This document shows, in pieces, positions 5,297 to 19,522 of a stretch of DNA of 20,682 nt. Both the position numbers and the translations under genes were made by a program. Source of the stretch: a virus; IMG/VR virus record IMGVR_UViG_3300044616_000517, positions 1-20,682 of that record; one strand, written 5' to 3'. Within the stretch, counting starts at the first letter, position 1; every line of letters begins with the position of its first letter. The notes below the pieces were generated by a model that saw nothing but the letters and a program-made list of their open reading frames with translations, was not told the DNA's origin and did not search any database.

Positions 5297-6793
5297 TTAG
5301 TAATATGCATTGCGCCGTGATGACCGCCCTCTAAACTCTCGCTCTGGTTCTGGCTCATCTAAATTAGTTGAAATAAACCCACCTTTTCTAAACCTTGCCA
5401 TCGCCATTGACACGGTATCCACATAGTCATCGTGTTGCCCTGCGGGAAATGATGCCACCTCTTCGATAACCTCGTCCGCAAATCGTGTGTTCGGTGCCCA
5501 TACTCTACCAGAGTGAAATAAGTCTGCAACCGCATTAAGCCTAGATATCTTATCGTTACCTCTTGTAGGCGTGAATTCCATCACTGGAATACCCATTGCA
5601 CGTAGCTCATATATAAGTGGCGCACCAGACGCTTTCTTTTCTACGATTATACTATCAGGTTGCCAATAGTTATAGTCATCCAGCACAACTTGCTTAAGTT
5701 CGGGGAACTCATACCGCCCACGTTTCGCATCAAGCATAATAATGTTAGCCTGCATCACGCCGTTGTCGTTGTCTTGGTAGAACACGCCCCACACAGTACA
5801 CGCACTATAGTCAGCTCGCTGTGATTTCTCAAACGCCGTATCCCAAGTCATCAATATAAAGTCTGTAGGTGGTGGGTCTTCTTTAGTCCATTTCTGCCAC
5901 CACTCTCTTTTAACTATCGCACCTTCTTCGGAGGTGGGATTCTGCTGATACTGCGCCTGCCACTTGGATATATCAATCGCATCTCGTGTTGCCTCAAGTT
6001 CCTCAAGACTCCAGAACTCAGGCCACAGCGGTTTACCTGAAGGCAATATGGCAGGGAACTCTACCACTCTCCAATTCTCGTTGCCTCTCTGCATCGCCGC
6101 TTCAAGCACTTGTCCCGTCAGGTCTCTTTTTGACCAACGAGTCTGGATGATGATTATGGCTCCGCCAGGCTGGAGACGCTGACGCGGACCAGACGTGTAC
6201 CACTCGTACACTTTATCGTAAATCTCAGGGTTACTCGCCGCTATCGCCGCTTCTTGTTCACTGTGCGGGTCGTCAATTATCAGCAGGTCAGCACCTTTAC
6301 CAGTTACTGCACCCCCTACCCCGATAGCAAAATAGTCACCTCCTGCACTGGTGTTCCATCTACCCGCCGCCTTGGAGTCAGACCGCAAACCTACGTTAGG
6401 GAACACTTCTTGATACGCAGGAGAGTCTACTAAGTTACGCACTTTTCGACCAAAACCCACCGCAAGGTCAGCTGTATGCGAGCACTGAATTACTTTTTTA
6501 TTAGGAAACCGCCCTAAAAACCAAGCCGGCAGAAGGTACGACCCAAACTCACTCTTTGTATGACGTGGGCCTAAGTTAATAATAAGCCGCTTGCACTCGC
6601 CTCTGGCTACGCGCTCAAACTCTGAGGCTATCCTTGCATGATGTCGACCATAAATAAAGTCAGGCCACACCGACTGCACAAACGCTAAGAAGTCAGTCTG
6701 TGAATTTTCTCGCTCTCTTCGGCGCTTAAGCTCTCGTACAAGTTGTGCTATACGTTCTTTATCTGATGGAGGCACATGGGCTAACTTACTCAT
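5297..6793 (-). CDS. terL: Terminase large subunit, 498 aa (ATPase plus nuclease)
   Basis: This motor pumps DNA into the prohead and cuts genome ends. The N-terminal ATPase has a Walker A-like loop GPRHTKS (75-81; the usual form is close to PPRHGKS), a Walker B LLIIDD (170-175) and a coupling motif QTRW (217-220). The C-terminal RuvC/RNase H-like nuclease has WDTAFEKSQRADYSA with Asp318, IIVEKKASG with Glu385, and HDDYVDTVSMA with Asp455/456, the three acidic metal ligands. Length is normal for the family. The ATG overlaps the end of the upstream small-terminase candidate by 8 nt, with GAGGAGGTAG as ribosome site, so both subunits are probably coupled. The packaging mode (cos, pac or direct repeats) cannot be read from this sequence. 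Confidence 0.97.
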   Translation of the reverse strand: MSKLAHVPPSDKERIAQLVRELKRRRERENSQTDFLAFVQSVWPDFIYGRHHARIASEFERVARGECKRLIINLGPRHTKSEFGSYLLPAWFLGRFPNKKVIQCSHTADLAVGFGRKVRNLVDSPAYQEVFPNVGLRSDSKAAGRWNTSAGGDYFAIGVGGAVTGKGADLLIIDDPHSEQEAAIAASNPEIYDKVYEWYTSGPRQRLQPGGAIIIIQTRWSKRDLTGQVLEAAMQRGNENWRVVEFPAILPSGKPLWPEFWSLEELEATRDAIDISKWQAQYQQNPTSEEGAIVKREWWQKWTKEDPPPTDFILMTWDTAFEKSQRADYSACTVWGVFYQDNDNGVMQANIIMLDAKRGRYEFPELKQVVLDDYNYWQPDSIIVEKKASGAPLIYELRAMGIPVMEFTPTRGNDKISRLNAVADLFHSGRVWAPNTRFADEVIEEVASFPAGQHDDYVDTVSMAMARFRKGGFISTNLDEPEPEREFRGRSSRRNAYY

Positions 6794-7430
6794 CTTCTAC
6801 CTCCTCAAATTCCTCTTCTTCAGCACCACCTTTAAGCTCTTCATCGGAAATCTGCTCGTATTGCACATCAATTGAGCCAAGCTCACCGCCAATAGAGTAC
6901 GTTGACATCAACTCATTAAGCTCAGACTCTAGGTCACCTGTCGGTTTATCTGCAGCAGCTACCTCTACTTTTGTCGTAAAGAGCCCAATTTCAGTTACCT
7001 TACCTAGCATTTCAACCGCCTTAATTTGAAGTTTTGGGTCTTCATTTTCGGCAAGTTCAAATAGCTTAAAGAGCACATATTGACGCATCTTGTTTGTAGA
7101 ATTTGCCAACGTGTAGTCAAAACGCTTTAAAAGTTTGTCGAGAGCTTTAGCCGCACCGGGTGTGGTAGGTGCAACAGGGGCATCAGGTTGTTCTAAGAAA
7201 ATGTTCAACGCTTCGTTTTTTTCTGCATAGGTTAATTGAGGCTCTGGCGGAGGAGGCGGCTCTGGAAATCCTTGCTGCGTTAAAAAATCTTGGTTTTGAA
7301 ACGCTTCTTTAGCGGAAAATCGCCGTTTAACTACCTCATCTGGGGCAAGCTGTTCGTATACAGGGGAAAATTCAAAAGTTTCGTCCTCATCAAATTCCCC
7401 GAAATCATCTATTGTGTCATTTATCTGCAT
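6786..7430 (-). CDS. Probable terminase small subunit, 214 aa
   Basis: It is the first gene of the leftward operon and lies directly before large terminase, the usual place of the DNA-recognition subunit. The N-terminus is acidic and is followed by a proline run (PEPPPPPEP, about 58-66). The middle is helical: KALDKLLKRFDYTLANSTNKMR, then VLFKLFELAENEDPKLQIKAVEMLGKVTEIGLFT, resembling the helical core of small terminases. The C-terminus is extremely acidic (EEEEFEEVEDE), and its coding bases double as the ribosome site of terL. I see no clear helix-turn-helix. The call rests mainly on synteny; a different packaging accessory protein is possible. The ribosome site before the ATG is weak (GAAAG). 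Confidence 0.62.
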   Translation of the reverse strand: MQINDTIDDFGEFDEDETFEFSPVYEQLAPDEVVKRRFSAKEAFQNQDFLTQQGFPEPPPPPEPQLTYAEKNEALNIFLEQPDAPVAPTTPGAAKALDKLLKRFDYTLANSTNKMRQYVLFKLFELAENEDPKLQIKAVEMLGKVTEIGLFTTKVEVAAADKPTGDLESELNELMSTYSIGGELGSIDVQYEQISDEELKGGAEEEEFEEVEDE

Positions 7431-13900: not shown

Positions 13901-14967
13901 AACCATACAGCTCAATTACTATGCAAAACGCAATCGACCTTATCAACGCAATCGGCGACACGACCACAGTCTTGGTACAGGGCGAGATGGGGATAGGCAA
14001 GTCATCTATTCTTAAATCCCTACAGCAACAGCACCCCGACCATGTGGTGTGCTATGTAGACATCACGACTAAGGATGTTGGTGACTTCCTTGTACCACAG
14101 GTGCGCCAGCTAGACGGTACGTCTGTCTGCTCATTCATACCCAACGAGGAGTTTGGCTTTCACCTCAACAAGCCTGTGATTATTATGCTTGATGAGATAG
14201 GCAAGGCTAGTAAGTCTGTGATGAATGCGTGTCTTAGACTCATGCTCGAGCGTAAGCTCGGCACACATAGTTTGCCCGAAGGCTCTATAGTATTTGCTAC
14301 TACTAACCTATCAGCAGAGGGTATCGGTGATAATCTGCCACCTCATGCAAGAAACCGTGTGGACGTGGTTAAGGTACGCAAACCAACCTCAGAAGAGTGG
14401 CGTCTTGGCTTTGCTATGGGTGCAGGTGTTGACCCAGTGGTTATTGCGACAGCTAACGAGTACCCTGCTATGTTCGCATCGTTCGAAGACTACGAGAAAC
14501 CAACTCAGAACGAGTACATCTACGACCCACGAGTACCACGAGCGGCGTTCGTTACACCACGCAGTATGGAAGCGGCAAGTAATATCCTCAAGCGTTGCCG
14601 TCACCTACCAGAAGACGTGCTATACCATGCGCTTATTGGTGTGATTGGTGAGCGTGCGACTATGGATATGATGAACATCCTCAAGTTAGATAACACCATG
14701 CCCGCATGGCGTGAGATTGTATCTGAGCCAACTACTACACAAGTACCAAGTAACGGCGCATCAGTCTGTCTTATAGTCTCTAAGGCTTTGCATAACGTAG
14801 AGAAAGATACGTTCGATGCGTGGATGACGTACTTAAACCGTATGACCCGTGAGGCGCAAGCTATGTTCGCTATGTCAGTGATGAGCGGTAAATCCCCCAA
14901 GCGTGACATCGCAGTACGCAACAAATCATTCACCTCATGGTGTGTAACTAACGGCTACTTATTCTAG
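13897..14967 (+). CDS. MoxR-type AAA+ ATPase, 356 aa
   Basis: Walker A is GEMGIGKSS (29-37), Walker B is VIIMLDE (94-100), sensor 1 lies in FATTN (133-137), and LPPHARNRVDVVKV (147-160) supplies arginines 152 and 154 at the arginine-finger position. This order and the LDEIGKAS...LRLMLER block are typical of MoxR/CobS-like ATPases, which work with a VWA-domain partner as chaperones, chelatases or enzyme activators. The partner is encoded immediately downstream (9-nt gap). The C-terminal half (about 230-356) is a helical lid and extension with no recognisable motif. The start is coupled to the previous gene (ATGA). Substrate unknown; possible roles include virion maturation or host protein remodelling. 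Confidence 0.92.
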   Translation: MKPYSSITMQNAIDLINAIGDTTTVLVQGEMGIGKSSILKSLQQQHPDHVVCYVDITTKDVGDFLVPQVRQLDGTSVCSFIPNEEFGFHLNKPVIIMLDEIGKASKSVMNACLRLMLERKLGTHSLPEGSIVFATTNLSAEGIGDNLPPHARNRVDVVKVRKPTSEEWRLGFAMGAGVDPVVIATANEYPAMFASFEDYEKPTQNEYIYDPRVPRAAFVTPRSMEAASNILKRCRHLPEDVLYHALIGVIGERATMDMMNILKLDNTMPAWREIVSEPTTTQVPSNGASVCLIVSKALHNVEKDTFDAWMTYLNRMTREAQAMFAMSVMSGKSPKRDIAVRNKSFTSWCVTNGYLF

Positions 14968-14976
14968 GAGATAATC

Positions 14977-16146
14977 ATGAAAGCAGAAGACCGCATACTC
15001 AAGGCGCACATTGCGCTGATGCAAGACACCCGCACCTTAGCCTACTCTGGCATTATCATGGTGGGCAAAGCAGTCATTACCGATGACATAGACACAGCCG
15101 CTACCAATGGACGTGATGTGTTTTATGGTCGTGCGTTTATTGACAGCTTAACTGACCAAGAGATACGCGGTCTTGTACTGCATGAAGCCAAGCACAAACT
15201 CTACCAGCACTTCTTTATCTGGCAGAAACTATTCGAGGAAGACCACGAGCTTACGAATGCCGCGTGTGACTTTGTGATTAACCTCGAGATACTAGACATT
15301 GATAGGGGCGGTAGCTTTATTAAGTTGCCCGAGTGTGGGTGTATCGATGAGCAGTATCGTGGTATGAATACCGCAGAGGTATACGCTAAACTCAAGGAGC
15401 AGTATGGTGATAAGCAAAGCCGTGCGAGTAAGGGTGGTAAAGGATTACCCGAAGGGTTAGATGAACATCAGTGGCAAGATGCCGTGTCGCTGTCGCCCGA
15501 AGAGAGGGAACAGTTATCTCGTGAAATCGATAGCGCAGTCCGCACTGGCGCACTGCTGGCAGGTAAACAAGGCGGTGATATTGACCGCAACTTCGAAGCT
15601 CTTATGGAATCGAAAGTAGACTGGCGTGAGCAACTGCGTGAGTTCGTATCATCAACGTGCGCTGGCAAAGGTGACAGCACATGGGCAAAACCAAGTAGAC
15701 GCTGGCTTTCTCAAGATATCTATATGCCCAGTCAGATTAGCGAAACAATAGGCTCTATATGTGTTGCGATTGATACATCGGGTTCTATTGATGACGAGGC
15801 GATTACCAAAGCCTTGAGTGAGGTGGTAGCTATATGCGACAATACAACTCCAGAGAAGGTTGACCTTCTCTACTGGGATACAGATGTTGCATCTCATGAG
15901 CAGTACCGCGAGGATAACTACGCGGGTCTAGTTAACTCTACTAAACCTGCTGGCGGTGGTGGTACAGACGTAGGCTGTGTGATGCAGTATATAGATGACA
16001 ACAAGCTCAAGCCAGAGTGTACGATTATTATCACTGACGGTTACACGGACTTTCCTAGAGAGCACCCTACGTACCCTGTGATATGGGTTATTGTTGGCGG
16101 TAGTAATGTCGTGCCACCGTTCGGTAGTGTGATTAGGTTAGATTAG
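14977..16146 (+). CDS. VWA protein with HEAKH metallopeptidase-like domain, 389 aa
   Basis: The N-terminal half carries VLHEAKHKLYQH with an HExxH signature (His69, Glu70, His73) and NAACDFVINLEI (94-105), where Asp98 could be a third metal ligand, as in the DUF2201-type putative metallopeptidases. A Gly/Lys-rich linker (about 145-165) leads to a VWA domain with a complete MIDAS: DTSGS (266-270), Thr330 in GGGGTD and Asp354 in IITDGYTD. The pairing with the upstream MoxR ATPase recalls the CobS/CobT and RavA/ViaA arrangements, but the peptidase-like domain points to a proteolytic or metal-dependent function. The ribosome site is AGGAG. No signal peptide, so it is cytoplasmic. Catalysis is not shown by sequence alone. 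Confidence 0.9.
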   Translation: MKAEDRILKAHIALMQDTRTLAYSGIIMVGKAVITDDIDTAATNGRDVFYGRAFIDSLTDQEIRGLVLHEAKHKLYQHFFIWQKLFEEDHELTNAACDFVINLEILDIDRGGSFIKLPECGCIDEQYRGMNTAEVYAKLKEQYGDKQSRASKGGKGLPEGLDEHQWQDAVSLSPEEREQLSREIDSAVRTGALLAGKQGGDIDRNFEALMESKVDWREQLREFVSSTCAGKGDSTWAKPSRRWLSQDIYMPSQISETIGSICVAIDTSGSIDDEAITKALSEVVAICDNTTPEKVDLLYWDTDVASHEQYREDNYAGLVNSTKPAGGGGTDVGCVMQYIDDNKLKPECTIIITDGYTDFPREHPTYPVIWVIVGGSNVVPPFGSVIRLD

Positions 16147-16148
16147 TC

Positions 16149-16409
16149 ATGATTGAAGTATCTCGTACTTTAACTGAAGGAGAATGGTGGGTATCACCAA
16201 TAGGTCGTAATACATTTGGTGAGCCTCACTCTACCTACCCACTTAATCGGAGCGTACTCGACTTAGAAAAAGAATTACCTCCCTTGTTATATGGTAGATA
16301 CTGTATGTTGCGTATAGCAAAACATGGGGAACAGCATGAGGGACTCGGAGTTGTTTATAAGTACGTGGATGGTGAGCCCTATAAGTTCTATATATGTGAG
16401 GAGGAGTGA
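16149..16409 (+). CDS. Tandem small-protein family, member 1, 86 aa
   Basis: This is the first of six adjacent small genes. It begins 2 nt after the VWA gene stop, with no strong ribosome site, so it probably depends on coupling. The body shares EGEWWVSP...EPH with member 2. The C-terminal half has the family signature: LPPLLYGRYCMLRIA (43-57), then a GLGV turn, ending KFYICEEE. The final Glu codons GAGGAGGAG are the Shine-Dalgarno sequence of member 2, whose start overlaps the TGA stop. The protein is small and soluble, with strand-rich prediction and no catalytic motif. Function unknown; link to the AAA+/VWA genes is by position only. Confidence 0.85.
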   Translation: MIEVSRTLTEGEWWVSPIGRNTFGEPHSTYPLNRSVLDLEKELPPLLYGRYCMLRIAKHGEQHEGLGVVYKYVDGEPYKFYICEEE

Positions 16410-16684
16410 TGATTAGGTTACAGCAAAGGATATCTGAGGATGGGTGGATGATAACTCCCTATAATCCAGAACCCCATAACCCAACAGTTCACGATGAGCC
16501 AATGTCTAAACAAAAATACATATGTACACTAGACAACAACCTACAAGATGACCTGCTTCCATTAGTATACAAAAGATACTGCCTGTTGAAGTTAGCCCCA
16601 TCAGATGAATGGGTGAGTGGGGTAGGTAAAGTAATTAGATACAACAACGGTACTTGCCAGTTCTTTATATATGAGGAGGAGTAG
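16409..16684 (+). CDS. Tandem small-protein family, member 2, 91 aa
   Basis: I chose the ATG at 16409, overlapping the previous stop as TGATG; a GTG three bases earlier is also in frame. It is the nearest relative of member 1: EDGWMITP aligns with EGEWWVSP, and LLPLVYKRYCLLKLAPSDEW aligns with the same region, followed by the GVGK turn and the ending FFIYEEE. It differs by an insertion around KQKYICTLDNN. The terminal GAGGAGGAG-TAG-TG both ends this protein and starts member 3 at a GTG codon sharing the stop's last base. No known domain. Confidence 0.85.
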   Translation: MIRLQQRISEDGWMITPYNPEPHNPTVHDEPMSKQKYICTLDNNLQDDLLPLVYKRYCLLKLAPSDEWVSGVGKVIRYNNGTCQFFIYEEE

Positions 16685-17028
16685 TGATTAGAATTAGATT
16701 CTTTGACGGTAAAAATATTGTGCAGGTAGTAAAAGAAATATTTCCTACTGAGCATTATGGAATACCAGAGCAGATGATAGCTCATAAAGTAGCCCAAGCA
16801 TCAAACGGGTATATTTCTTTTGCATCAAATCCATTTAGCCAAGAGTTTACAACGGGCGTAATGCAAGCAAATAAAGCACCCTCAGAAATCATACGCTTTA
16901 AGTCCCTGTCTATGCATATACAGGAGAAGGTGAGCTTGCTTAAAGTAGGTGAGGTAGGTGAGTGGCTTGAAGGTATAGGAGGTAAAAGTATTAATGGTGC
17001 GTACTATATATGTGAGGAGGAGGAGTAG
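16684..17028 (+). CDS. Tandem small-protein family, member 3, 114 aa
   Basis: GTG start overlapping the previous TAG by one base. It is the longest member; the N-terminal two thirds (MIRIRFFDGKNIVQVVKEIF, then a Ser/Asn-rich part with SNPFSQEFTTG) has little resemblance to members 1 and 2. From about residue 80 the family block returns: MHIQEKVSLLKVGEVGEWLE, GIGGK, ending YYICEEEE with four Glu codons. The same bases form an extended AGGAGGAGG ribosome site for member 4. This mosaic of variable front and conserved back argues for recombination or fast divergence of the N-terminal part. Function unknown. Confidence 0.85.
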   Translation: MIRIRFFDGKNIVQVVKEIFPTEHYGIPEQMIAHKVAQASNGYISFASNPFSQEFTTGVMQANKAPSEIIRFKSLSMHIQEKVSLLKVGEVGEWLEGIGGKSINGAYYICEEEE

Positions 17029-17321
17029 TGATAGCCTTTAAATGGGATGACAAAGTAAAGCGTACTTGTAGAGTGAGAGGTGTTGATGTAGGGGTAGGGA
17101 TAGAACTTTTTCAAACGGGTATTTTTAATACTGAGGGCTATTCTAAGTACCCTACTGATTGTGTTACAGAACTTTATTTCGATGACCTGCCAGATATTAT
17201 CCAAGCTCGTGTAACTATGTTTATGTTAGTAAAACCTTTGCAGCAACATATAGAAGGTGTAGGGGTTTATGCGACTGACGGGAATGTACATTCCTTTATG
17301 TATATCTACGAGGAGGAGTAG
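17028..17321 (+). CDS. Tandem small-protein family, member 4, 97 aa
   Basis: GTG start sharing one base with the previous TAG. It opens MIAFKWDDKVKRTCRVRGVD, closely parallel to member 5 (MIAFYWLDKETGECTVKGVR), so 4 and 5 are a recent pair. The family block is LPDIIQARVTMFMLVKPLQQ, then IEGVGVY, ending FMYIYEEE. The C-terminal codons again serve as the ribosome site for the next gene. No membrane segment, no cofactor motif. The aromatic and acidic surface residues suggest protein binding, which I cannot test here. Confidence 0.85.
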   Translation: MIAFKWDDKVKRTCRVRGVDVGVGIELFQTGIFNTEGYSKYPTDCVTELYFDDLPDIIQARVTMFMLVKPLQQHIEGVGVYATDGNVHSFMYIYEEE

Positions 17322-17608
17322 TGATAGCATTTTACTGGTTAGATAAAGAAACGGGGGAGTGTACAGTTAAGGGGGTGCGTAATGGATATCCTGTAGCATT
17401 AGTGCATAGCACTATAAAAAACCCAGAACCCGATTCAAGATACATTACGTATTTTGGGGAGAGGGGTGAGCGTACTCATATACTGCTACTACCTAAATAC
17501 ATTCAAGAAAGAGTATCAGTATTACGAGTTGCTTCTTTTAACGAGTACATAGAAGGCATAGGCATTAAACTGGGGGCTGAGGTATGCTACATTTGTGAGG
17601 AGGAATAA
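17321..17608 (+). CDS. Tandem small-protein family, member 5, 95 aa
   Basis: GTG start with a one-base overlap to the member 4 stop. The N-terminus pairs with member 4. The conserved half is LLPKYIQERVSVLRVASFNE, then YIEGIGIKLG, ending VCYICEEE. Here the last codons are GAG GAG GAA, followed by TAA and then, without a gap, the TTG start of member 6. The change from TAG-TG overlap to TAA-TTG suggests weaker expression of member 6. Confidence 0.85.
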   Translation: MIAFYWLDKETGECTVKGVRNGYPVALVHSTIKNPEPDSRYITYFGERGERTHILLLPKYIQERVSVLRVASFNEYIEGIGIKLGAEVCYICEEE

Positions 17609-17827
17609 TTGACGTTATTAGTAGACTTAGGTAAGAAAACTGCTGTACCATTAGATGACGCTCTCCCTACTAGGGAGATGAAAGAAATACAATTTGAGGA
17701 GGTTAGCGAATTAACCCCGCCTGTACCCGATAACATAGCTTTACTGCAAGTTGCGCCTGTTGGTGAGATTGTAGGTGGTGTCGGTGTGAATAGGGGTGAC
17801 GGTATATTTTTAGTGTGTGAGACGTAA
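17609..17827 (+). CDS. Tandem small-protein family, member 6 (terminal, truncated form), 72 aa
   Basis: TTG start directly after the member 5 stop, 5 nt after AGGAGG. It is shorter and more divergent: the front (MTLLVDLGKKTAVPLDDALP) is unrelated, but the back retains NIALLQVAPVGEIVGGVGV, matching the LLKVA...E..EGIG signature. It ends IFLVCET and lacks the Glu run. Since no coupled gene follows, loss of the Glu run fits the idea that this tail is kept for its ribosome-binding function. It may be a decaying copy. Confidence 0.75.
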   Translation: MTLLVDLGKKTAVPLDDALPTREMKEIQFEEVSELTPPVPDNIALLQVAPVGEIVGGVGVNRGDGIFLVCET

Positions 17828-17833
17828 AAAGAA

Positions 17834-17857
17834 GATTCCGTACGCAAGTACGGAATC
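17834..17857. promoter_or_regulatory. Perfect 10-bp hairpin with GCAA tetraloop
   Basis: GATTCCGTAC and GTACGGAATC enclose GCAA, 7 nt after the end of the small-gene array. On the plus strand no U-tract follows (CCTAAGAG), so it is not a standard rightward terminator; it may stop 3' exonucleases or be an RNase III site. Read on the minus strand it is followed by TTCTTTTT and would be a good leftward terminator. Confidence 0.7.
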
Positions 17858-19030: not shown

Positions 19031-19522
19031 ATGGCATACAAAGACCCAGAGAAATATAAAGCATGGCGTGAAGCCAACCGTGAAAAATTAAGAGCACATA
19101 GTAAAAAATACCGTGAGGCTAATCCTGAGAAATTAAAAGCCTACCGTGAAGCTAATTGTGAGAGAGGAAAAGTATACAACAAAGCATACCGTGAGGCTAA
19201 TCGTGAGAAAGTAAAAGAGAATCGTAAAACATACTATGTAGCCAACCGTGAGGAAGTAAGAGCAAAGCATAAAGTATATTGTGAAACTAATCGTGAGAAA
19301 TTAAAAGCGTGTAACAAAGCATACCGTGAGGTTAGTCGTGAGAAAATAAAAACATACCGTGAAGCATACATTAAGAATCCTATGAATGCTGCACAAATTA
19401 GTATATACAAATTAACAGGCTTGAAGAAAGCTGAAATCCCAACCGAGTTGCTTGAAACACAAGCACTTATTATTAGTATCAACAGAGAGATTAGAAACCA
19501 TGAAAAATTGCACAGAGCTTAG
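19031..19522 (+). CDS. YREANREK-repeat protein, 163 aa
   Basis: A very strong ribosome site (AGGAGGAGGAG) precedes the ATG. Residues 8-118 are about eight imperfect units of 11-15 residues based on YREANREKLKAYNKA, highly charged (R, E, K) and helical, probably one long alpha-helical rod with alternating charges. Residues 119-163 (ISIYKLTGLKKAEIPTELLE, then ALIISINREIRN) form a distinct small domain. Similar repeats occur in phage and virus proteins, sometimes next to nuclease or DNA-binding domains, but no nuclease is visible here. The repeated Arg/Lys suggests nucleic-acid contact. The DNA repeats could drive length variation by recombination. Confidence 0.82.
   Translation: MAYKDPEKYKAWREANREKLRAHSKKYREANPEKLKAYREANCERGKVYNKAYREANREKVKENRKTYYVANREEVRAKHKVYCETNREKLKACNKAYREVSREKIKTYREAYIKNPMNAAQISIYKLTGLKKAEIPTELLETQALIISINREIRNHEKLHRA

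Follow-up and report, generated by a model that had tools for sequence, protein, structure and literature searches.

What are the six small genes that follow one another on the plus strand of the virus record IMGVR_UViG_3300044616_000517, and what is the run of glutamate codons with which each of the first five ends just ahead of the next? The window analysed here is this whole record, 20,682 bases long, and its virus is probably an aquatic tailed phage, since its terminase is 50-56% identical to those of the Pelagibacter phages HTVC023P and HTVC027P, phage DSL-LC04 and Synechococcus phage MinM2. A sequence-only reading of this DNA had pointed to six open reading frames (ORFs) of 72-114 codons at positions 16149-17827, and all six are present as it described them (Table 1). 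We call them g1 to g6; the first five are the cassettes (classes A to E) while g6 makes up class F. They stand behind genes for a MoxR-like AAA+ ATPase and for a protein with a DUF2201 metallopeptidase-like domain and a von Willebrand factor A domain (the vWA protein). As judged by the sequence comparisons given below, the six coupled genes are one previously undescribed protein family, their array is best read as a birth-and-death gene family and the acidic tail is best read as a translation signal.

Homology among the six genes was assessed by leaving out one class at a time. The last four residues were trimmed from the cassettes and from the 123 window ORFs of at least 40 amino acids, and a profile of the remaining classes was searched against those ORFs. 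The left-out member ranked directly behind the five training members in every case, with E-values of 5.7e-10 (A), 6.3e-9 (B), 9.7e-10 (C), 4.9e-5 (D), 1.2e-9 (E) and 1.0e-5 (F), while the best ORF from outside the family reached 0.26. With the remote proteins described below in the training set, the weakest left-out member was D (4.1e-4) and the best non-member stood at 0.6. Comparison of the cassettes with the g6 homologues by hhalign gave a probability of 96.8 over 42 columns. Because the tails had been trimmed in the first test and because hhalign joined the cassettes to the g6 homologues, the homology exceeds the shared tail; the notion that the members are unrelated and have only the tail in common is contradicted at the level of sequence, with folds modelled for g5 only. 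Mean identity among the five cassettes, in the frame of g5, was 17% over the first 18 residues, 12% over the next 31 and 9% over strand 3, as against 28% over the helix and 36% over the last strands. The front halves are thus more variable than the back, as had been proposed, and one related record carries a swapped front (see below). In a tree rooted by choice on the g6 homologues, which does not date the origin of the cassettes, all cassettes grouped together (support 0.995). The sequence-only reading had taken genes 1-2 and 4-5 as the closer pairs; the g1 and g2 classes did group (0.945), while g4 was drawn with g5 at a support not above 0.5.

Models were made of one array member, g5, and of one remote protein of 298 amino acids, while the folds of g1-g4 and g6 are taken from sequence homology. 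The AlphaFold2 model of g5 (41 sequences) had a mean predicted local distance difference test score (pLDDT) of 79.5 and a predicted template modelling score of 0.73, and it presents g5 as one small domain with the order beta-beta-loop-beta-alpha-beta-beta. The variable stretch is unreliably modelled, since residues 23-33 had a pLDDT under 50. The last 65 residues of the 298-residue protein (mean pLDDT 87.8) repeat the element order of g5, and both models had the same top four matches in BFVD (A0A6J7X9R3, A0A6J5RNX1, A0A6J5RE98 and A0A6J5QFS9). Among solved folds, the matches to g5 were too weak, the best being an E-value of 2.4 with Foldseek and a Z of 3.2 with VIA-align (2zmf_B, 66 residues, root mean square deviation 4.1). 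The best match of the 298-residue protein, to 1ew4 (Z 5.2), covered residues 39-153, outside the module, and was set aside.

The family is without a named entry in Pfam, PHROGs, NCBIfam and PADLOC: g1-g6 gave no match in Pfam at an E-value of 1, only weak matches in PHROGs (0.081, 0.21 and 0.33) and no match in NCBIfam or PADLOC at 0.01, and a sequence search of the PDB with the family profile gave a best E-value of 0.11. PADLOC, whose models describe defence systems and not anti-defence, gave weak matches for the ATPase alone, the best being 3.6e-4 to PDC-M37B.

We then compared the locus among relatives. Ten records (the window, L002-L008, L027 and L028) share it at high identity; L001 is identical to the window. 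The DNA of these records is 84-96% identical to that of the window in the vWA gene, 83-100% in g6 and 82-96% downstream in the eight records that reach far enough (L006 is too short). The number of cassettes before g6 is five in the window, three in L007, L008 and L027, two in L005, one in L002, L004, L006 and L028, and zero in L003. A further 17 loci (L010-L026) have a g6 homologue and no cassette, while the contig of L009 ends inside the vWA gene; g6 is therefore the constant core gene of the locus and more than the final copy, a point absent from the sequence-only reading, as are the ATPase and vWA genes upstream. The order varies as well, from A-B-C-D-E in the window to D before C in L005 and B, E-like, C in L008 (classes by tree). 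The proposal of a modular array is borne out by these differences in length and order, and it is because the members are homologous and their number changes from 0 to 5 between close relatives with 82-96% identical flanks that we read the array as a tandem birth-and-death family.

Single genes also appear to have been rearranged. The g2 of L027 has the same first 18 nucleotides as that of the window, a front that is 53% identical and a last stretch of 132 nucleotides that is 96% identical, which to judge from the alignment is a clean front swap. The scar in L003 described below, an extra GAG in g3 of the window and a shortened tail in g2 of L007 would fit recombination at the tail repeats. The array is missed by Tandem Repeats Finder and has thus diverged at the DNA level. 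For most junctions an assembly artefact was rejected, because contigs from IMG datasets other than that of L001 show them too: L027 has A-B, L007 has B-C, and E-F is present in L002, L004, L006, L007 and L027. Scans of viral contigs with g2, g3, g4 and g5 gave no records beyond those already known. A search with the junction pattern returned 20 stretches, five of which carry the family, all from known records, while the other 15 had no match to it at an E-value of 1.

The genes are tightly packed, with same-strand overlaps of 1 or 4 nucleotides at g1-g2, g2-g3, g3-g4 and g4-g5. The GTG starts of g3, g4 and g5 have one base in common with the preceding stop, and g1 and g2 overlap by 4 nucleotides if g2 begins at GTG 16406 or by 1 if it begins at ATG 16409. 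The earlier description of genes without a gap or with 1-nucleotide overlaps, the stop and start sharing a base, consequently holds for g2-g5 (for g2 if the ATG is used), while g6 abuts g5 with no overlap and no shared base. Members 1-5 had been said to end in a glutamate run whose codons are a perfect Shine-Dalgarno site for the following gene, and the pairing energies with the anti-Shine-Dalgarno sequence at the starts of g2-g6, from -11.8 to -12.3 kcal/mol, show strong sites there; the 1st percentile of 1500 random 22-mers was -10.8 kcal/mol. The start of g1, behind the vWA gene, pairs weakly (-3.1 kcal/mol). Among the 25 other starts tested two were equally strong, those of the terminase (-13.5) and of the gene at 19031 (-12.1), while the remaining ones, g1 included, ranged from +1.8 to -9.9. 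The spacing, given as constant, is so up to g5 and is one base longer before g6. The sixth gene was said to have lost the glutamate run, and g6 does end in VCET; a loss is not needed, since 0 of the 17 g6 homologues of L010-L026 end in such a run.

The codons of the tails point in the same direction. In the last three codons of 20 cassettes from nine array-bearing records (L001 was left out, being identical to the window), GAG made up 52 of 57 glutamate codons, compared with 132 of 221 in the rest of these arrays, counting g6 (Fisher 3e-6, a value that treats related copies as independent). In eight large genes of the window it made up 150 of 275. In L003, which has zero cassettes, GAGGAGGAGGAATAATTG follows the stop of the vWA gene as non-coding DNA at the position of the ribosome site of g6. 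The vWA gene itself ends in LEE (TTGGAGGAG) right before a cassette in L005 and L028, a gene inserted behind vWA in L008 ends in LEE and yields the same site, and the variant tails EEG, EED and EGE retain the purine run. The DNA signal is therefore separable from the peptide. Since the tail is a strong Shine-Dalgarno site at the position of the next gene, a copy can be gained or lost without depriving the next gene of one; each cassette carries the next ribosome site, as had been proposed for any added copy. Outside the array, the ORF before the terminase gene (window 6786-7430, minus strand) has a long acidic tail with the strongest anti-Shine-Dalgarno match among the 30 starts tested, the same device as in the array.

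Table 1. Positions in the window of the genes, tail sites and hairpin of the array locus
Feature	Position	Strand	Basis
AAA+ (MoxR-like) ATPase gene, 356 aa	13897..14967	+	phrog_1297 ATPase 2e-47; PF07728 AAA_5 23.3 bits, cut-off 22
DUF2201 metallopeptidase-like + vWA protein, 389 aa; adjoins the array on its upstream side	14977..16146	+	PF13203 5.8e-23; PF09967 1.1e-21
Cassette g1 (class A), 86 aa; ATG start; tail EEE; own ribosome site weak	16149..16409	+	ORF, pairing energy, profile
Cassette g2 (class B), 91-92 aa; start GTG 16406 or ATG 16409; tail EEE	16406..16684	+	ORF, profile
Cassette g3 (class C), 114 aa; GTG start; tail EEEE	16684..17028	+	ORF, profile
Cassette g4 (class D), 97 aa; GTG start; tail EEE	17028..17321	+	ORF, profile
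Cassette g5 (class E), 95 aa; GTG start; tail EEE	17321..17608	+	ORF, profile; AlphaFold2 mean pLDDT 79.5
g6 (class F), 72 aa; TTG start; tail VCET without glutamate run	17609..17827	+	Found in relatives without cassettes; hhalign to cassettes 96.8
GAGGAGGAG, tail of g1, Shine-Dalgarno site of g2	16398..16406	+	-12.2 kcal/mol
GAGGAGGAG, tail of g2, Shine-Dalgarno site of g3	16673..16681	+	-12.3 kcal/mol
Four GAG, tail of g3, Shine-Dalgarno site of g4	17014..17025	+	-12.2 kcal/mol
GAGGAGGAG, tail of g4, Shine-Dalgarno site of g5	17310..17318	+	-11.8 kcal/mol
GAGGAGGAA, tail of g5, Shine-Dalgarno site of g6	17597..17605	+	-12.2 kcal/mol
10-bp hairpin between g6 and the following gene	17834..17857	+	Folds in ten records

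The ratios of nonsynonymous to synonymous substitution rates (dN/dS, NG86 method) were 0.07-0.14 for the vWA gene (6 pairs), 0.30-0.33 for g6 (3 pairs) and 0.09-1.28 for the cassettes (13 pairs, the close ones having few changes and noisy ratios). Twelve of the 13 cassette pairs lay above the vWA range, so that evolution is faster in most of them than in the adjacent vWA gene. The six divergent pairs of cassette orthologues gave 0.28-0.49 with intact frames. By comparison with vWA, these values argue that the cassettes do code for protein and that the constraint on them is weaker or diversifying.

The two genes upstream of the array lie in the same operon, the ATPase gene ending at 14967 and the vWA gene starting at 14977. 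The name MoxR-like comes from phage annotations of this pair, the ATPase itself being identified here by phrog_1297 and PF07728. The vWA gene falls in PHROG 1314, which is labelled 'HNH endonuclease', as are several phage records, N4 gp25 among them; in Pfam it matches the DUF2201 metallopeptidase and vWA domains and no HNH domain. Relatives of the vWA protein occur in 787 of 50,697 phage records, including N4, where the ATPase gene is followed by the vWA relative (gp24-gp25). A vWA query found no relative among bacterial contigs taken at one genome per species, and for this reason no host can be named.

In remote relatives, whose ATPase is 54-60% identical, proteins of 267-311 and of 78-159 amino acids have the module as their C-terminus. 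We found 101 loci with a vWA ORF, 77 of them with at least 3.5 kb downstream, and the module was present there in 77 of 77 (60 distinct by exact sequence); the 24 loci with less than 3.5 kb were not counted. The count was repeated with profiles A2 and A3, which hold the array lineage and the g6 homologues alone and no remote sequence, because profile A4 was partly built from the counted loci (24 of 77). With A2 and A3, the remote loci were matched in 45 of 45 cases at an E-value of 0.05 and in 40 of 45 at 0.001. When 20 records were searched in full, 40 of 40 module matches lay inside the loci fetched around vWA. The cassette profile by itself matched 13 of 14 records and had no match at 0.1 in the L022 record, where the wider A4 found the module. 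In isolated phages, tblastn gave no match to g5 or g6 at an E-value of 1 and none to two remote module proteins at 0.01 and 0.1. A match of A2 and A3 in the ATPase of L123 and L124 (0.0095) was taken as chance. Their other matches were to proteins of 222 amino acids in L127 (2.3e-7) and L135 (0.05). These proteins, at L127:3155-3823 and L135:3395-4063, about 5 kb upstream of vWA, have module-like motifs (LALLKIMDVDGYVEGVGY in L127), perhaps two per protein.

What could such an array do? The small one-domain proteins are read as a birth-and-death family between the ATPase/metallopeptidase-vWA pair and the constant g6. From the anatomy of the junctions, the genes are predicted to be co-translated by termination-reinitiation, and the repeated GAGGAG/TAGTGAT junctions together with the similar gene starts may be the places of recombination. 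The least certain part of the proposal is that g6 and the cassettes would serve the MoxR-vWA machine as interchangeable subunits for recognition: they would dock by their constant back half, and the stretch that varies, between strands 2 and 3, would select the target protein for remodelling or cutting. We favour this reading tentatively, with anti-host proteins as a close second, because MoxR-vWA pairs are reported to have often a distinct third component and a MIDAS (metal ion-dependent adhesion site) that binds extended peptides (PMC7159879), because short overlaps are described as enriched among subunits of heteromeric complexes (PMC10666635), and because removal of Shine-Dalgarno motifs inside the upstream gene is reported to have lowered reinitiation in 4 of 5 Escherichia coli pairs (PMC6728339). 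Its fuller form is rather doubtful: the array would be a rack from which a phage can reload the target adaptors of a machine that remodels and cuts proteins and is driven by ATP, each cassette boundary being at once ribosome site, stop-start junction and recombination site, so that adaptors could be swapped in any number and order and would always be expressed. Host defence proteins, which the sequence-only reading had suggested as targets, are possible but speculative ones.

Several observations weigh against this reading. In 11 isolated phages with a vWA relative (the ATPase annotated nearby in 10) there was no module match at an E-value of 5 within about 4-5 kb, nor was there one in the 38.7 kb examined of HTVC023P. 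With the HMMER filters off, the best matches in isolates were chance-like: 0.13 in HTVC023P, 0.3 in Vibrio phage 1.152.O (an ORF of 103 amino acids just upstream of vWA) and 0.42 in EdH4. As the 11 isolates are without a clear match, the module is no general partner of the MoxR-vWA machine, and the link is a feature of a lineage; it is confined to a single lineage of related, syntenic phages, in which the genes could simply be neighbours, and in the remote relatives the intervening genes take up as much as 2.5 kb. The only cassette of L002 (L002:7173-7460) has an in-frame stop near its start, although a later GTG could start a shortened protein, and single cassettes can therefore be dispensable. 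The g1 gene and its L027 counterpart have a dN/dS of 0.09, as low as that of vWA, and the junctions C-D and D-E were seen only in the window and in the identical record L001.

The cassettes may instead be small, independent anti-host proteins, such as anti-defence proteins, with a direct action on host targets; their variable fronts would bind different host proteins, and the MoxR-vWA neighbourhood would be no more than a recombination-prone accessory site. This is possible, and we rank it behind the recognition subunits: it agrees with the fast modular diversification and presence or absence between near relatives, with the small size of the proteins and with the lack of isolated-phage counterparts of g5 and g6 by tblastn, whereas the family matches no annotated family of known function and has no known target, and g6 and the remote module proteins have a fixed position near this one pair, a constancy that is not required of an accessory gene able to move freely. 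That the pair serves virion assembly, the module proteins being chaperone clients or scaffold-like factors and the array mirroring changing virion parts, seems unlikely. For group 2.2 jumbo phages, PMC7824862 proposes that their MoxR and metallopeptidase-vWA pair takes part in virion assembly and processing, but about 9 kb separate the array from the terminase and portal genes, which are on the opposite strand, and since L003 has no cassettes, they cannot be essential virion parts there.

It is similarly improbable that the cassettes are near-neutral tandem duplicates kept by chance for no particular use. The interrupted cassette of L002 and the dN/dS near 1 of some close pairs would suit such drift, while the constraint with intact frames in the six divergent orthologue pairs and the presence of classes A-E in several records oppose it. 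The remaining alternative, which we hold to be the least probable of all, is that the EEE tail is a protein signal, such as an acidic peptide that binds the vWA metal site, its use as a ribosome site being secondary. The vWA protein adjoins the array and MIDAS sites are reported to bind extended peptides (PMC7159879). Against a peptide signal stand the preference for GAG over GAA in the tails, the persistence of the GAG run of L003 as non-coding DNA, the EE end of vWA itself before the cassettes of L005 and L028, the existence of EEG, EED and EGE tails, the absence of a glutamate tail from g6, and the acidic tail at the same position in the ORF before the terminase start.

Taken singly, the ingredients are familiar: coupled genes have been described before, and so have tandem gene families and the MoxR-vWA pairs of phages. 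A literature search at overview level found nothing like this family, nor a paralogue whose coding tail is the ribosome site of the next gene. The termination-reinitiation pairs described by Huber et al. (2019, PMC6728339; 2023, PMC10666635) likewise have overlaps of 1 or 4 nucleotides and a Shine-Dalgarno motif inside the upstream gene, whereas in the array a conserved family C-terminus supplies the motif, which is thus copied with each cassette, and coupling is predicted. The ternary systems reported in eLife (2020, PMC7159879) also combine, in the account given there, a MoxR-like ATPase, a vWA protein and a further conserved component with variable modules. Unlike them, the present locus is phage-borne, its vWA domain is fused to a DUF2201 metallopeptidase-like domain, and the putative third component is a tandem protein of 72-114 amino acids, joined to the pair by conserved neighbourhood, which would differ from VMAP, iSTAND, FtsH and beta-propeller proteins; g1-g6 had no match in Pfam (E-value of 1) or NCBIfam (0.01), with no VMAP-specific model run. 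The MoxR and metallopeptidase-vWA pair described in phages (PMC7824862; N4 gp24-gp25) is the same kind of gene pair, but the 11 isolates show no clear module match near vWA. The top structural matches in BFVD are uncharacterised proteins of uncultured Caudovirales phages, 154-302 amino acids in length. The anti-defence genes of archaeal viruses (PMC11065993) are viral genes with a common expression signal, which as presented in that work includes a promoter, whereas the signal of the array is one for translation and lies within the coding region, and the anti-defence role is putative.

An expression signal that lies within the coding sequence of each copy, and thus travels with the copy, is an unusual genetic device. 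If the cassettes are adaptors, the array would show how a phage retargets an AAA+ machine and would give a first handle on the purpose of the widespread phage metallopeptidase-vWA protein; either way, it is a natural variant set for testing co-translation and fast diversification.

Some features around the array were also recorded. The hairpin directly 3' of g6, which is perhaps part of the same transcript as the array, has no T run and three different stem sequences in the ten records; the stems are paired in all ten apart from small interruptions (single-sequence folds, an RNAalifold analysis of the alignment being spoilt by gaps). The ORF at window 19031-19522 (163 amino acids) has repeats with a period of 45 nucleotides and is rich in lysine, arginine and glutamate, and its counterpart in L003 has 141 amino acids. 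Extra genes lie directly behind vWA in L025 and at L006:2901-3557, L008:1297-1956, L019:2720-3340 and L024:7149-7640. That of L024 matches HNH_3 and AP2, that of L019 has no Pfam match, and those of L006 and L008 match only weak helix-turn-helix models. At the end of the latter two the vWA tail (VPPFGSVIRL) occurs a second time, which looks as though the original end had been displaced by the insertion.

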